Assembly (NCBI GenBank): GCA_938003835.1
Contig: CALKXJ010000005.1
Coordinates: 1-64,000, forward strand
Direction: 5' to 3'
Source: an uncultured Bryobacteraceae bacterium
GTDB lineage: Bacteria > Acidobacteriota > Terriglobia > Bryobacterales > Bryobacteraceae
DNA length: 64,000 nt
The notes beneath the pieces are model-generated. The model ran no database searches. It saw nothing but the letters and a program-made list of their open reading frames with translations, and was not told the DNA's origin. This document shows, one piece after another, positions 26,017 to 31,654 of this stretch (positions within the stretch are counted from its first letter, which is position 1; every line of letters starts with the position of its first letter). A program made the translations under genes and the position numbers.

Positions 26017-27573
26017 ATGAGTATTTGGAATCAGCGGCCCGCCGGAAAGGTATTGACCTTTGCCCTGGTCGGCGTCACCCTGGCGATCGGCATCCTGATC
26101 GGTACCCTGGTGGACTCGCGCGTGAAAGCCGAGCGGAGCCAGCCGGCCACCGATGCGACCCCACTGCGGATTCCCGATCCGGTCGAGCTTTCCAACGAGT
26201 TCAGCCGCCTGGCAAAACGGCTCGAGCCCGCTGTCGTGTTCATCGAGACCGATTTCGATCCCCGGCCGGCGGAGACTTCACGCCGGGGCCCCGCCCAGCC
26301 CGAGGAGGGAGATGAGCTCGATCTGTTCCGGCGCTTCTTCGGAGGACCGTTCGAGAGCGTGCCCCGGCCGCGTCAGGCCACCGGATCCGGCTTCATCGTC
26401 GATCCCAAGGGATACATCATCACCAACCATCATGTCATCGAAGGCGCCGACCGCATCCGCGTGAAGCTCGTCGACGACCAGACCGAGCATCGGGCGCGGC
26501 TCATCGGCTTCGACCCGGAAACCGACCTGGCGGTTATCAAAATCGATGCCGGGCGGCCGCTGCCCACCATCGAGGTCGGCAACTCCGACGCCGTCCAGGT
26601 CGGCGACTGGGCCATCGCCATCGGCGCCCCGTTCGGCCTGGAGGCCTCGGTCACTGCCGGCATCATCTCCGCCAAGGGCCGCGACGTCGGCCCGCAGCAG
26701 TTCCAGCGCTTCATCCAGACTGACGCCGCAATCAATCCGGGCAACAGCGGCGGGCCGCTGGTCAATATCCGCGGCGAGGTCATCGGGGTCAATACGATGA
26801 TCGCCACCCGGACCGGCGGATATCAGGGAATCGGTTTCGCGCTGCCGATCAACACGGCGGTCAAGGTCTATAACATGATCATCCAGAGCGGCCGGGTCAC
26901 CCGCGGCTCGATCGGCATCAGCTTCTCGCGCGAGCAGGCGCCGGTGCTGCTCAAGGCCCTGGGCGTCGATCATGGGGTCGTCGTCAGCCAGGTGCAGCCG
27001 GGCGGCCCGGCCGAGAAGGCCGGCATCAAACCCGAGGACATCATCCTGGCCATCGACGGCAAGCCGGTCAAGGACGGCGACGACCTGGTTTCGCGTGTGG
27101 CCGACACGCCTATCGGCACCGAGGTGAAGATTTCGATCGACCGCGGCGGCAAGCGGATGGAGATTCCGGTCAAGATCGAGGACCGCGCGCGGGTTTTCGC
27201 CGACGATCCGCGCTTCGCCTTTTACCGTGAGCGCAAGCCGCAGGAGAGCGGCGCCCCGGCGGAGGCCATGTTCGGCGTCTACGTGCGCAACCTTTCGGCG
27301 CGGGAGCGAGCGGAGATGTCGCTCGAGGAGCAGCAGGGCGGCGTCGTGGTCACCCGCGTCGAGCCCCGGTCCTTCGGCGAGGATATCGGCCTGCGCGAAC
27401 GCGACGTGATCGTCTCCATCAACCGCCGGCCGGTGAACTCGGTGGACGATATCCGGGCCATCCAGGCGACACTCAAGTCCGGGGACGCCATCGCCTTCCG
27501 CGTCCTGCGGCCGGGGTCGACCCGGGGCCAGGTCACCTGGTTCAGCACCTACCTGGCGGGTCGCATCCCGTAA
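26017..27573 (+). CDS. HtrA/DegQ-family periplasmic serine protease
   Basis: 518 residues. A single N-terminal transmembrane or signal helix (about 11-30) anchors it. The trypsin-like domain has catalytic H139 (TNHHV), D170 (ETDLAV) and S244 (NPGNSGGP). Two PDZ domains follow, about 290-385 (SIGISFSREQAP ... DHGVVVSQVQPGGPAEKAGI) and about 415-515 (GVYVRNLSARER ... VVTRVEPRSFGEDIGL). It degrades or refolds misfolded envelope proteins. GAAGAGG lies nine bases before the ATG. Length is within the DegP/DegQ range. Stress regulation is likely, but only a -10-like box is visible. Confidence 0.95.
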   Translation: MSIWNQRPAGKVLTFALVGVTLAIGILIGTLVDSRVKAERSQPATDATPLRIPDPVELSNEFSRLAKRLEPAVVFIETDFDPRPAETSRRGPAQPEEGDELDLFRRFFGGPFESVPRPRQATGSGFIVDPKGYIITNHHVIEGADRIRVKLVDDQTEHRARLIGFDPETDLAVIKIDAGRPLPTIEVGNSDAVQVGDWAIAIGAPFGLEASVTAGIISAKGRDVGPQQFQRFIQTDAAINPGNSGGPLVNIRGEVIGVNTMIATRTGGYQGIGFALPINTAVKVYNMIIQSGRVTRGSIGISFSREQAPVLLKALGVDHGVVVSQVQPGGPAEKAGIKPEDIILAIDGKPVKDGDDLVSRVADTPIGTEVKISIDRGGKRMEIPVKIEDRARVFADDPRFAFYRERKPQESGAPAEAMFGVYVRNLSARERAEMSLEEQQGGVVVTRVEPRSFGEDIGLRERDVIVSINRRPVNSVDDIRAIQATLKSGDAIAFRVLRPGSTRGQVTWFSTYLAGRIP

Positions 27574-27586
27574 GGCGGGAACGAGG

Positions 27587-28498
27587 CTAGTCGGCCAGGG
27601 CGCGCTCCAGCCGCGCCAGATTCTCGCGCATCACCGTCAGGAAATCGCCCTGAGCGGGCCGGTTGGCGCAGGCGTCGAAGACCACGACCACGACGCCGTA
27701 TCCGGCCAGCCGGTTTCTAACCTCCTCGAGCGGCTCGGCCTCCCACAGCATCAGGCGCGCCGGGCGCCGCTTGAGCAGCCGCTCGAGCCGGCGCCACTCG
27801 CCCGGGGCCGGCATCTGGTCCGGCTCCCAGTGAAAGCTCACCAGGTCGAGACCGTACCGCCGCTCCAAATACTGGTAGACGGGGTGAGAGGCCAGAAGCG
27901 GACGCCCCCCGGCCGTGATTCGCTTCAGCTCCCGGTCAAGCCCCGCCAGATCGGCCGCCAGCGCCCGAAGGTTCTCCTCGAAATCCGCCGCCCGCTCGGG
28001 CATAAGGCGCATCAGCGCCTCGCGAATCGCCTCGGCCTGCCTTTGGGCCAGATGCGGATCGAGCCAGGTGGTGAAGGCGAAACCCGCATGGGTGTGCTGT
28101 CCCTCGGGGCCGTGGCTGTGTGTGACGGCGTCCTTCAACGGGATGTAGTCGGCTTCGAAAGCGGCCGAGGTGTTCACCAGGCGCGAGGCAGCCAACGTCG
28201 CCCGTTCCACCCATTTCTCATAACCCGCCCCGTTGAGCAGCACGAGATCGGCCTGCTGGTAGGCCTCGATCACGGAGGTTTCCGGTTCCCAATAGGCCGG
28301 GTCGACGCCCGGCGGCGCCGGGAAGCGCACATCGGCCGCATCGCCCGCGATGCGCTCGGCGAAATACGCGAGCGGGTAATTCGTCGTGTAGACGACGGGC
28401 TTGCGAGCCGGCGCCGGCGTGATCTTCCGCGGCGAGCAGGCAGGAATGAGCGCCAGCACGAGGGCGAGGCCCCCAAGGGTCAACCACCACAGCCGCAC
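27587..28498 (-). CDS. TroA/ZnuA-like metal-binding lipoprotein
   Basis: 303 residues. Lipoprotein signal ending IPAC (Cys21). The domain matches cluster A-I metal substrate-binding proteins: YTTNYPLAYFAERIAGDAADV, GYEKWVERAT, a His-rich loop THSHGPEGQHTHAG, DPHLAQRQA, LLASHPVYQYLERRYGLDLVSFHWEPDQMPAPGEW. The His residues in these blocks are candidate zinc or manganese ligands. The start is GTG 28498. It lies 9 bp after an FtsX-type permease gene, whereas its family normally pairs with an ABC-3 (ZnuB-like) permease. Confidence 0.85.
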   Translation of the reverse strand: MRLWWLTLGGLALVLALIPACSPRKITPAPARKPVVYTTNYPLAYFAERIAGDAADVRFPAPPGVDPAYWEPETSVIEAYQQADLVLLNGAGYEKWVERATLAASRLVNTSAAFEADYIPLKDAVTHSHGPEGQHTHAGFAFTTWLDPHLAQRQAEAIREALMRLMPERAADFEENLRALAADLAGLDRELKRITAGGRPLLASHPVYQYLERRYGLDLVSFHWEPDQMPAPGEWRRLERLLKRRPARLMLWEAEPLEEVRNRLAGYGVVVVVFDACANRPAQGDFLTVMRENLARLERALAD

Positions 28499-28507
28499 AA
28501 ATCCACG

Positions 28508-29689
28508 CTATTCGATCAGAAACCGGCGCAGCAAGTTGGCGCCGGCCGCCGCTGTCGCCCAGGTAAACAGTGCCGCCAGCACGGCCGCGGCGCCAACCAC
28601 CCCGGCGATCTCCGACGCCACGAGCGCCGCGATCCGGCCCCGTGAGGCGCCGAGCTTGACCAGCGTCTCCATCTCGCGCCGGCGCAGCCGAAGGGAAAGC
28701 AGAAAGACCAGCGTCGCGGTGGCCAGCGTCGTCGCCCCCACCAGCGCCAGCGCCGCCACCACGAACTTCTCGACCGCCAGCACCGTTCGAAGCAGATCCT
28801 CAATCACCTCGATCGGTCGCAGGATCTGATGCGCCGCGGCGGCGCCCTCATAGCGGCCCATCAGCAGCGTCGCGGCCTTTTCGTCGCGCGGCAGCGCAAT
28901 AACGGCGGTGATGGGATAGGCGGCCGGATCGCCGTGGAAGTGGAACGAGGCGATGTTGTCGTCCGTGACTTCGTTGTATTCGACCACGGAGGCGTTGCCG
29001 ATCACGTTCGCGCCCTTCCGTGCGAGCACGCCCGCGGCGGCTTCGGGCCGGCTGAGGTCCTGGTGACCGTGCGCCAGCCCCTCGATTACCCAGGTGGTCT
29101 TCAGGTCGGCGAAGATCACTCGGTCGTCGGGCGTGCCCGTGGGCGCCAGGATTCCCGTGAGCCGCATCTTGAGAGGGTAGGCGCCCCCCACATCGAAGAG
29201 GTTCTCCGCCGAAGAGACGACGGCATCCTGCGGGCGCAGGCCACGGCGGCGCGCCACCTCGGCCCCTGCGACGCAGTCGCCTAGGCGCGTCATCTGGCGG
29301 CCCTCGGCGATCCGGAGCCCGCGGAACGCGAAATAATCAAGCGTGGTGCCGATGATGGGATCACCCTGCGCACGATAGCGGATGTAGAGCGGGATCGCCT
29401 GTGCCAGTCCCGACTTCGCTACACGCTCTGCCTCCCCGTACCTCATTAAAGGCGGATCTTGCCTGCCGGCATAAAGCACCTTCAGGACCAGCTCGAGCGG
29501 GCTCCCCTTGGCGCCGAGAATGAGCGGAGTCGATGCGGCGCGTGAGGCGAGCTCCGCCCGCGCCTGGCGCACCAGCACCCGCAATCCGATGGGCACATAG
29601 AGGATCAAGGCGATGGAGAGCACGAGCACCACAGTCTTCGCGCGGTGATAGGCCAGGTACCGCCAGGCCAGGTGGAGCAAGTCTCTCAC
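28508..29689 (-). CDS. FtsX/MacB-type ABC permease
   Basis: 393 residues with the FtsX-like layout: one N-terminal transmembrane helix (about 18-38, TVVLVLSIALILYVPIGL), a large extracytoplasmic domain (about 45-265) and three C-terminal helices (about 275-390, including VEKFVVAALALVGATTLATATLVFLL). MacB-type permeases transduce ATP hydrolysis into envelope work rather than conventional import. The GTG start overlaps the ATPase stop by four bases (GTGA), so the two are translated together. Confidence 0.85.
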   Translation of the reverse strand: MRDLLHLAWRYLAYHRAKTVVLVLSIALILYVPIGLRVLVRQARAELASRAASTPLILGAKGSPLELVLKVLYAGRQDPPLMRYGEAERVAKSGLAQAIPLYIRYRAQGDPIIGTTLDYFAFRGLRIAEGRQMTRLGDCVAGAEVARRRGLRPQDAVVSSAENLFDVGGAYPLKMRLTGILAPTGTPDDRVIFADLKTTWVIEGLAHGHQDLSRPEAAAGVLARKGANVIGNASVVEYNEVTDDNIASFHFHGDPAAYPITAVIALPRDEKAATLLMGRYEGAAAAHQILRPIEVIEDLLRTVLAVEKFVVAALALVGATTLATATLVFLLSLRLRRREMETLVKLGASRGRIAALVASEIAGVVGAAAVLAALFTWATAAAGANLLRRFLIE

Positions 29690-30351
29690 GGCTTCGCCTC
29701 TTGGAAACTCCCGAGGTCGATCACCTGATCAAAATGGGGCAGCAGGTCGCCATCGTGCGTCACCATGACGAGCGTGGCGCCCGAGCTGCGCGCGTAGCCG
29801 AGAAGGGCCTCGACCACGAGCGCTTTGCTGGCCGGGTCCAGTCCTGCCGTTGGCTCGTCGGCCAGCACGAGCTCAGGCTCGATGACAAGCGCGCGGCAGA
29901 GGCCCACGCGCTGGCGCTCGCCAAATGAGAGGCAGTCCACAAAGCGGTCGAGCTTGTCGCCGAGGGCCACCTTCTCGGCCAGGGCCTCGGCCCGGCGCAC
30001 CACCGCGCCATTCAGCCGGAGACGCCGGCACAGCCGGTAGGGCAGCAGGATGTTGTCCCGAACCGTGAGGTACTCGATCAGCTCGAACTCCTGAAAGACC
30101 ATGCCGATGCGCCGTAGGCGGAAGTCGCGGCGGGAGGCTTCCTCAAGCGCGGTGATCTCGAGCTCGCCGGCCCAGATGTGCCCGGCGCGAGGCGTAAGGA
30201 CGCCGCCGAGGAGAAAAAGCAGGGTGGTTTTGCCTGAGCCGCTCGGTCCGATGAAGGCAGCGTGCGTGCCGCGAGGCAGTTGGAGCTCGGGGAGACGCAG
30301 GCGGAATGGGCCGTTGGGGTAAGCAAAATCGAGGTCGCAAATCCGGATCAT
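29686..30351 (-). CDS. ABC transporter ATP-binding protein (LolD/MacB type)
   Basis: 221 residues: Walker A GPSGSGKT (36-43), Q-loop VFQEFELIEYLTV, signature LSFGERQRVGLCRAL (one change from LSGGQQQR), Walker B ELVLADEPTAGLD and H-loop VMVTHD. The LolD/MacB type couples to FtsX-like permeases, as the downstream gene is. First gene of the ATPase-permease-binding-protein run. Confidence 0.92.
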   Translation of the reverse strand: MIRICDLDFAYPNGPFRLRLPELQLPRGTHAAFIGPSGSGKTTLLFLLGGVLTPRAGHIWAGELEITALEEASRRDFRLRRIGMVFQEFELIEYLTVRDNILLPYRLCRRLRLNGAVVRRAEALAEKVALGDKLDRFVDCLSFGERQRVGLCRALVIEPELVLADEPTAGLDPASKALVVEALLGYARSSGATLVMVTHDGDLLPHFDQVIDLGSFQEAKP

Positions 30352-30892
30352 CGGCCGGCAAGGGCGGAGGGGAGGCGGCCCCCAGTTCCCTCGGGGGATA
30401 CCCGCTCCGGCAGCCGCCTATCCCTCTGGATTATAAGGGTTCCCGCCCCCTCGATTCAGGTCACTCTCTCTCGGAAATCCAACCTTCGCCCGAGATACTT
30501 TCCGCGATGCCTCCGGCATACTGGCATCTGTGGAGGCTCCGCAAGCTCGTGGCCTGATCGCCGCTCTCAGGTGTTCCACCCCGAAACGCGTACCGGAATG
30601 AAACGCCCAGATCGCCCCGGGTGTTTCAACCGAGCACGCGCCGGCCTCATCCTCGGAAGCGATCGGCCGCGAAGGCGCGGCGCGCCAGATGGGGAAAAGC
30701 CTTAAAGTTCGCTCGGAATTCATTGACGGGCAAGGGAACAAGCTCACCTCGAGCGAGGCTGGCGTGCCGCGACGGCCCCGTGCCCGCCCGGGCTGGCGCG
30801 CCGGTTGCACTTCCCCTGGTCGCCCGCCGGAGCCAGCGGAGCCGAAGATCCTGCCGGTGGCCGATACCGGCGCTCGGTGTGAGGACCCGACC
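30352..30892. other. Non-coding stretch before the sigma-factor gene
   Basis: About 540 bp between divergent genes. It must hold promoters for the ABC cassette and the sigma factor. The sigma-factor frame is open further upstream (from 30689), but that part is Pro/Arg-rich and lacks conservation, so I treat it as leader. A TTGACG hexamer occurs at about 30723 without a good -10. No RNA gene or strong hairpin recognised. Confidence 0.5.
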
Positions 30893-31654
30893 ATGCCAGC
30901 GAAAAAGAAGACGCAGCCCGTCTCCGACCAGACCTCCAAGCGCGACCGGATCATTCTCGAGCACCTGCCCCTGGTCAGGGCAATCGCGGTGCGAGTGCAC
31001 GAGAACCTGCCGGTGCACGTCGACCTGGACGACCTGGTCCACGCGGGCATTCTCGGCCTGTTCGATGCGGTGACGAAGTTCGACCCGTCCAAGAAGGTGG
31101 CCTTCTCCAGCTATGCCAAGCATCGCATCAAGGGGGCCATCCTCGACAGCCTGCGCCAGCTCGACTGGGCCTCGCGCGACCTGCGCCGGCGTCACAAGCA
31201 GGTGGAGGCGGCCACGCGCAGCCTCGCCGCCGAGCTCCACCGCAATCCCACCGAGCAGGAGGTAGCCGAGCGTCTGGGAGTCGAGGAGGACCGCTGGCGG
31301 CGCATGATGATCGATTTGCGCAACGTCGGGCTGATCTCGGCCTCCCGGCGCGGGGCCGAAGGCGACGACCTGCCGCCGCCGGACTTTCCCGGCAAGCCGG
31401 ACACGCAGCCGGACCGCATCTGCGCGCTCCAGCAGCTCCGTACCGTCCTGAGCACGGCCATCGGCACCCTGCCCGAGCGCTACCAGAAGGTGGTGCTCAT
31501 GTATTACAACCACGAGCTGACGATGCGGGAGATCGGCAACGCGCTTGGCATCAATGAAAGCCGTGTCTCGCAGATCCACAAGTCGGCACTCGAGAAGATG
31601 GCGGCAGTGCTCGAATCCAACGGCATCCACTCCGCCCAGGCCTTTGCCGACTGA
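30893..31654 (+). CDS. FliA/WhiG-type alternative sigma factor
   Basis: 253 residues from ATG 30893, seven bases after GAGGA. Region 2 reads DLVHAGILGLFDAVTKFDPSKKVAFSSYAKHRIKGAILDSLRQLDW, region 3 RNPTEQEVAERLGVEEDRWRRM, and region 4 TLPERYQKVVLMYYNHELTMREIGNALGINESRVSQIHKSAL. This is the sigma-28 (FliA/WhiG) group that directs flagellar or developmental promoters. No flagellar, chemotaxis or anti-sigma (FlgM) gene is in the window, so its regulon is unknown. Confidence 0.92.
   Translation: MPAKKKTQPVSDQTSKRDRIILEHLPLVRAIAVRVHENLPVHVDLDDLVHAGILGLFDAVTKFDPSKKVAFSSYAKHRIKGAILDSLRQLDWASRDLRRRHKQVEAATRSLAAELHRNPTEQEVAERLGVEEDRWRRMMIDLRNVGLISASRRGAEGDDLPPPDFPGKPDTQPDRICALQQLRTVLSTAIGTLPERYQKVVLMYYNHELTMREIGNALGINESRVSQIHKSALEKMAAVLESNGIHSAQAFAD

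Follow-up and report, generated by a model that had tools for sequence, protein, structure and literature searches.

The window analyzed here is a stretch of 64,000 nucleotides from an uncultured Bryobacteraceae bacterium (assembly GCA_938003835.1, contig CALKXJ010000005.1, positions 1 to 64,000), and at 27587-30351 its minus strand carries a cassette encoding an ATP-binding cassette (ABC) ATPase, a MacB/FtsX-type (type VII) permease and a ZnuA/TroA-fold binding lipoprotein. This trio is a small gene set common to many unrelated bacteria. Its nearest characterized relative is ZrgBC, a MacB-like permease with its ATPase that is regulated by zinc in Vibrio, Aeromonas and Pseudomonas. The core of the trio is homologous to ZrgBC, yet by its binding protein it is not a Zrg system. 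We class it as a variant among the Zrg-like type VII ABC systems for metals. The machine very probably moves metal one way or another, and we tentatively propose that it serves net acquisition of a transition metal, most likely zinc.

The gene trio and its distribution

The cassette is transcribed from 30351 to 27587 in the order ATPase, permease, lipoprotein. The first gene (30351..29686, minus strand) encodes a 221-residue ATPase of the LolD/FtsE/MacB nucleotide-binding domain (NBD) type (PF00005, E 4.7e-29), in which the catalytic motifs are intact: Walker A GPSGSGKT, signature LSFGERQ, Walker B LVLADEP and the H-loop. Its stop overlaps the GTG start of the 393-residue permease gene (29689..28508, minus strand) by 4 bases (29686-29689). 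A gap of 9 bases (28499-28507) separates the permease from the lipoprotein gene (28498..27587, minus strand), which also starts with GTG and encodes 303 residues with a strong match to ZnuA (PF01297, E 1.6e-48). The Pfam matches of the permease are weak, with E 9.5e-6 for MacB_PCD and 0.0023 for FtsX, neither reaching the Pfam cut-offs. An initial annotation of this DNA had described three co-oriented genes with a 4-bp overlap and a 9-bp gap and had named the three components as above; the coordinates on the minus strand and the Pfam matches bear this out.

Relatives were collected by scanning a four-row permease alignment against one genome per species. This yielded 271 loci, of which the best 80 were kept, and since they were chosen by similarity to the query, the conservation figures favor close relatives. 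Two plasmid loci, a further genome from the same family and the window itself brought the number of loci examined to 84. Genome G397 and the genome of locus L028 (G529) appear identical, so the sample sets overlap. By phylum label the 80 loci belong to Pseudomonadota (25), Myxococcota (14), Planctomycetota (9), Acidobacteriota (6), Thermodesulfobacteriota (6), Gemmatimonadota (4), Verrucomicrobiota (3) and five other phyla with one locus each, while eight are unassigned. All three genes are present in 68 of these 80 related loci, covering every one of the 12 phylum labels, and the search for the trio in other genomes that the initial annotation had suggested thus comes out in its favor. Conservation this wide shows the three cassette open reading frames (ORFs) to be real genes and not chance ORFs.

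The ATPase is encoded in 83 of the 84 loci, and the remaining one is truncated at its start by a contig end; 73 loci encode the binding protein. Among the 11 loci without a binding protein gene, six end at most 322 bases from the permease ORF and one (L046) has a fragment. In two Planctomycetota loci that encode no ZnuA-fold protein, the gene immediately upstream of the ATPase encodes a different conserved protein (L026:5280-6326 and L049:2041-3153); it is 71% identical between the two loci and its sequence resembles DUF1573 proteins.

Within the phylum of the source genome the trio is rare, as evidenced by permease matches above 200 bits in only nine of 396 genomes, a threshold chosen after a gap between 211 and 95 bits had been seen. 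A first search of the phylum gave a full-length permease match in two of 81 genomes. Copies of the trio are also found on plasmids in Methylomagnum and Paracoccus, and patchy presence combined with plasmid copies suggests that the trio spread horizontally. Divergence of the binding protein correlates with that of the permease (Mantel r 0.66 over 56 loci, the best of 1000 permutations reaching 0.18), with species kinship ignored in this comparison. Loci L053 and L059 share the isolate name FCS_M_Gamma_075, so the system may be present twice in a single genome.

Binding protein, permease and family U

The lipoprotein has a lipobox, IPAC, with Cys22 (read from the sequence), and its AlphaFold2 (AF2) model, with a mean predicted local distance difference test (pLDDT) score of 92.7, shows the TroA/ZnuA fold. 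Using Foldseek, we obtained YcdH (2o1e) as the best match (E 4e-20, template modeling (TM) score 0.76). Some of the trio binding proteins resemble plain secreted proteins; a narrow lipobox pattern matched 13 of 66 members, a figure that we do not use because the pattern misses several visible lipoproteins. Two public records label such proteins 'zinc ABC transporter substrate-binding protein'.

We aligned 64 trio binding proteins with 26 other ZnuA-family proteins from trio-bearing genomes as controls, and the proteins of Methylomagnum (L013) and Paracoccus (L014) were kept as two rows outside the 64. By coordinates, 23 of the 26 controls have an ABC-3 match no more than a few kb away. In a tree of the 64 and 26 proteins, a branch of length 2.76 and support 100/100 separates the trio proteins from the controls. 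A long predicted helix (167-195) and a tryptophan, W96, conserved in 64/64 rows, correspond in our own reading to the long interdomain helix and conserved Trp of cluster A-I proteins as described in excerpts of PMC7731109.

The canonical ligands of ZnuA proteins are largely replaced. At the His-1 position, Ala68 in the window (28295..28297, minus strand), the 64 trio rows have Ala in 62 and Val in two, compared with His in 18 of the 26 controls. At the His-2 position, Thr143 here (28070..28072, minus strand), they have Thr in 62, Met in one and Ala in one, compared with His in all 26 controls. Only the third ligand is kept: His-3, H205 in the window (27884..27886, minus strand), is His in 62 of 64 trio rows and in 26/26 controls. 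The trio proteins have gained a hairpin, HSHGPEGQHTH in the window (28088..28120, minus strand), which is the proposed new metal site, and its histidines 127, 129, 135 and 137 occur in 64, 64, 62 and 64 of the 64 rows. AF2 predicts strands at 126-128 and 134-136 with a local pLDDT of 71-72. Position 223 is His in 52 of the 64 and position 253 is Glu in 62; the controls have Glu, Gln or Asp at the latter. The Methylomagnum protein follows the trio ligand pattern, and the Paracoccus protein is an exception with His at His-2 and Gln at His-3. According to excerpts of PMC7731109, a flexible His-rich loop near the metal site is often found in ZnuA proteins. In the trio proteins this loop is now among the most conserved features, while the canonical cleft site has decayed, and we infer that the metal site has moved from the interdomain cleft to the His hairpin. 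The designation TroA-like in the initial annotation therefore holds for family and fold but not for the canonical TroA/ZnuA metal site, without which metal binding cannot be deduced from family membership.

The AF2 model of the permease (mean pLDDT 89.0) contains long helices at 16-53, 292-335 and 350-392, and the segment 54-291 between helices 1 and 2 is a predicted periplasmic core domain. Its best Foldseek match is MacB (5gko, E 7.7e-12, TM 0.49), with LolC/E, YbbP and HrtB also matched; by sequence, a PDB search gave no solved relative. Two histidine motifs lie in the predicted periplasmic domain, HGH (H207 and H209; 29063..29071, minus strand) and FHxH (H250 and H252; 28934..28942, minus strand), and all four histidines are invariant in the 67 permeases aligned from the 84 loci. 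The chain stops after helix 3, and in 83 of the 84 permeases no more than 15 residues lie between the end of the protein and that of the clade profile. The FtsX Pfam match spans positions 3-70 of 120 in the window permease versus 2-119 in the ZrgB of an Aeromonas locus. A plain hydropathy count over 65 permease rows gave three helices in 45, four in 14 and two in six, and the window permease scored four since the count breaks its long second helix into two segments that overlap. Aeromonas ZrgB has four helices by hydropathy, and type VII ABC systems typically have four in each unit according to excerpts of PMC12646458. The clade permease is thus predicted, on the model, to have three membrane helices, not four.

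Clustering of the neighbors of trio loci gave one dominant family, named U, of about 500-640 residues. Most aligned members begin with a signal-like sequence and combine a periplasmic part and a C-terminal domain with one or two membrane helices, as predicted for a membrane-anchored periplasmic protein; the Methylomagnum member shows no membrane helix. No convincing match to U was obtained in Pfam, NCBIfam or PDB. The motif HWGHxHxR is found in 43 of 50 members, HFGHxHxR in five, HWGCIHQR in one and HAAHVHER in one, and from the signal-like N-terminus and the helices this His cluster should face the periplasm.

U is present in 46 of the 68 loci that have more than 2 kb upstream of the ATPase ORF. 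In 33 of them it lies directly upstream of the ATPase on the same strand, in seven upstream within about 1.6 kb (one of these, L080, is only a 30-bit match) and in six on the opposite strand, four of those well away. For the 22 loci without a nearby U, 16 genomes encode it elsewhere, namely 15 of 21 plus the source genome, which has U on contig 8 (E 1.4e-142); some of the 15 matches cover the C-terminal part only. The upstream sequence was too short in eight more trio genomes, three of which also have U. In the 396-genome phylum sample, U and the permease are each found in nine genomes and both in eight (Fisher p 5.8e-15, relatedness ignored), with U weak or partial in two of the eight (114 and 55 bits). 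Genome G505 has U without the trio, adjoining DAHP synthase. The trio proposed by the initial annotation thus stands, but the system is often four-part, its fourth member being encoded here on another contig. We found no description of U or of the pairing of a ZnuA-fold protein with a MacB-type permease in the open-access literature, subscription journals lying mostly outside this search.

In the source genome (L104:6813-9313, contig 8) and in genome G033 (L105:7001-9616), U directly follows a metallophosphoesterase gene (PF00149), and a divergent PIG-L de-N-acetylase gene lies within about 1.2 kb of U in both. It is possible that the metallophosphoesterase or PIG-L protein is a target or co-factor of the machine.

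Known relatives and proposed function

By Pfam, the Aeromonas locus is a zrg operon, with ZrgA (PF10986, E 6.5e-58), an ATPase, a permease and DUF3299. The window permease matches this locus in tblastn with 30% identity over 193 residues (E 9e-10), and the 65-row clade permease profile scores Aeromonas ZrgB at 77 bits. Like ZrgABC(DE), the trio has a separate LolD/MacB-type ATPase, a homologous MacB-like permease and a periplasmic metal-binding protein with a His-rich stretch. It differs in that the binding protein has the ZnuA fold and is not ZrgA (PF10986, DUF2796), in that the permease has three predicted helices versus four, with HGH and FHxH unseen in the single Aeromonas ZrgB read, and in that U is its partner, no DUF3299 protein (ZrgE) lying beside the trio in the window. 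PF10986 is unmatched in the source genome and also in 14 control genomes, though the model finds Aeromonas ZrgA. In a zrg-like locus on a plasmid of Rhodobacteraceae bacterium M382 (L096), the permease is followed by DUF3299 and the ATPase is preceded by a biotin/lipoyl-binding protein. ZrgABC and PA4063-4066 (PMC9820375 and PMC11481552) already combine a MacB-type permease with a metal-binding protein, so this partnership as such is not novel; this corrects the initial annotation, which had such permeases usually lacking a metal-binding protein.

With ZnuABC, AdcABC and TroABC the trio shares the fold of the binding protein, the long linker helix, the conserved Trp and one of three His ligands; unlike them, it has a permease that is not ABC-3, an ATPase that is LolD-like and a binding protein in which two of three His are replaced in 64/64 rows. 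A classical ZnuABC with a mis-called permease is ruled out, as there is no ABC-3 match either for the permease or in the source genome. The permease fold and ATPase type are those of type VII ABC systems (MacAB-TolC, LolCDE, FtsEX, YbbAP-TesA), but the trio permease has three predicted helices and, instead of MacA, LolA, EnvC or TesA, a TroA-fold protein and U as partners. In contrast to MacAB-TolC, its NBD is a separate gene and no MacA or TolC lies beside the cassette, the rest of the genome not having been searched for adaptors. A LolCDE operon is likewise ruled out by a LolD score below the ncbifam cut-off (135.7, with 307.75 required), the single permease gene and the TroA-fold partner.

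The direction of transport in Zrg-type operons is disputed. According to PMC9820375, a Vibrio znuA mutant requires ZrgA to grow normally when zinc is absent, and zinc uptake is reported there; in PMC11481552 the Pseudomonas relative is read as exporting pyochelin or the cobalt complex of pyochelin, and zinc content showed no relevant difference. The trio clade combines the same kind of ABC machine with a classical zinc-binding-protein family and an undescribed co-occurring partner, U. With this component set, direction and substrate become testable via clear candidate residues, and the trio thereby offers a route to settling the dispute over its nearest known relative. The trio further casts doubt on the assumed partnership of PF01297 proteins with ABC-3 permeases and on the assumption that the canonical ligands are retained in this family.

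We propose a relay on the basis of conserved His clusters in the lipoprotein, the permease and U, which presumably all face the periplasm. The lipoprotein would catch the metal, by family probably zinc, on its His hairpin and hand it to the histidines in the periplasmic domain of the permease. U would serve as co-receptor or adaptor in this transfer, and the permease dimer, moving under the drive of ATP, would release the metal onward. The most likely net result would be metal acquisition as reported for Vibrio ZrgABC, and in the source genome the cassette would act as a stand-in for ZnuABC. This uptake reading rests on the Zrg precedent and on the source genome, where no ZnuB was found. The genome (5.0 Mb, estimated 100% complete) encodes one ZnuA-family protein and no second, and PF00950 (ABC-3) gave no match in it, the control genomes being positive in 13 of 14; G033 has no ABC-3 match either. 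The initial annotation had left a choice between a metal-responsive envelope machine and an unconventional metal transporter and had suggested a check for ZnuBC; the lack of an ABC-3 permease in the source genome favors the transporter.

Whether the metal ends up in the cytoplasm is less certain than that it is moved at all, and we put this forward with reserve, as several observations weigh against it. Two of the three canonical import ligands are lost in the trio proteins, and four Planctomycetota loci show no binding protein gene across more than 5 kb. An ABC-3 match above the cut-off is present in 34 of 50 trio-bearing genomes (29 with E <1e-20), so the cassette is more often an addition than a replacement, and the source genome has a ZIP-like match, albeit below the cut-off. 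A crude scan of 75 upstream regions for Zur, Fur and NikR boxes gave none above shuffles, and no zinc-regulon gene is among the 25 commonest neighbor families listed. Six of the 21 genomes mentioned above have no U, all of them metagenome-assembled and two of only 1.5-1.7 Mb. Moreover, type VII ABC systems typically pass no substrate across the membrane, as stated in excerpts of PMC12646458, and the related Pseudomonas pump is read as an exporter (PMC11481552, in part).

Some of these points would fit a somewhat less probable explanation, periplasmic metallation, in which permease movements load the lipoprotein's metal, with the help of U, into secreted or periplasmic metalloproteins and none crosses the inner membrane. 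NosDFY-type copper delivery to nitrous oxide reductase is a precedent. The lost import ligands are consistent with it, as are the location of U, which by hydropathy appears periplasmic and membrane-anchored, its place directly after a metallophosphoesterase gene in two genomes, a metallo-beta-lactamase (MBL)-fold family in 12 of 93 stretches and the related plasmid-borne ATPase-permease pairs of Shinella, Thermus and Paracoccus, immediately preceded by an alkaline phosphatase gene and a small gene. Type VII ABC systems also typically act on the periplasmic side (PMC12646458, in part). On the other hand, no single target enzyme recurs in most loci, no listed Pfam family exceeds three scanned neighbors, and Zrg mutants have cellular zinc phenotypes according to excerpts of PMC9820375. 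That the widespread four-component type VII class, with its three-helix permease, moved metal site and U, is as a whole an ATP-driven periplasmic metallation machine for zinc-group metals is conceivable but rather doubtful.

Export of a metal, metal complex or metallophore, as proposed for the PA4064-PA4065 pump, is improbable. The MacB-type fold of the permease, the Pseudomonas work on the related PA4065 (PMC11481552, in part) and HlyD-type proteins in two of 72 scanned neighbors point this way, yet a ZnuA-fold capture protein is expected for uptake rather than export, and the neighbor families listed include no TolC family and no widespread MacA-type adaptor. We consider it equally unlikely that no metal is moved and that the lipoprotein reports metal status while the ATPase-permease alters periplasmic activity in an FtsEX-like manner. 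FtsEX-type signaling is known in the superfamily, and the type VII fold with its three-helix permease would suit it; no widespread sensor kinase or wall hydrolase is among the listed neighbor families, however, and His motifs in three components would point to a relay rather than to sensing alone.

Neighborhood of the trio

Pfam scans of the neighbors covered 102 and 72 ORFs, nearly all drawn from a set of 238 and partly overlapping, and for each set the 25 commonest families were considered. A general neighborhood of metal or hydrolase genes was rejected, as no listed family has more than three members among the 25 commonest shown; FadL-type porins are the top family of the 72-ORF scan with three. 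Among the 93 stretches examined, two families recur near the trio or U: the MBL-fold family noted above, with members at L040, L063, L078, L157 and L162 among others, and a FadL/Toluene_X-type outer membrane porin family, which is found in 13 (among them L044, L069 and L087). Members of both families are not always near the trio or on its strand, and a general link to metallohydrolases is only partial.

Individual loci have other metal-related neighbors. The Methylomagnum locus has NikR, a TonB receptor and CopC within about 5 kb of the trio, and the Paracoccus cluster is flanked by two DUF4198 proteins, a family that includes nickel-uptake proteins. Plasmids of Shinella (L097), Thermus thermophilus (L098) and Paracoccus methylovorus (L099) carry a module of alkaline phosphatase, small protein, ATPase and FtsX-type permease. 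The permeases of these modules are homologous to that of the window, the one from Shinella having a His-rich stretch, and the modules may be another metal-linked branch of the superfamily.

The source genome also has one Fur-family match. In the window, the cassette is flanked by a divergent sigma-70 family factor (30689-31654, plus strand) and a convergent trypsin-PDZ protease of the HtrA/Deg type (26017-27573, plus strand), neither of which looks to belong to the system.

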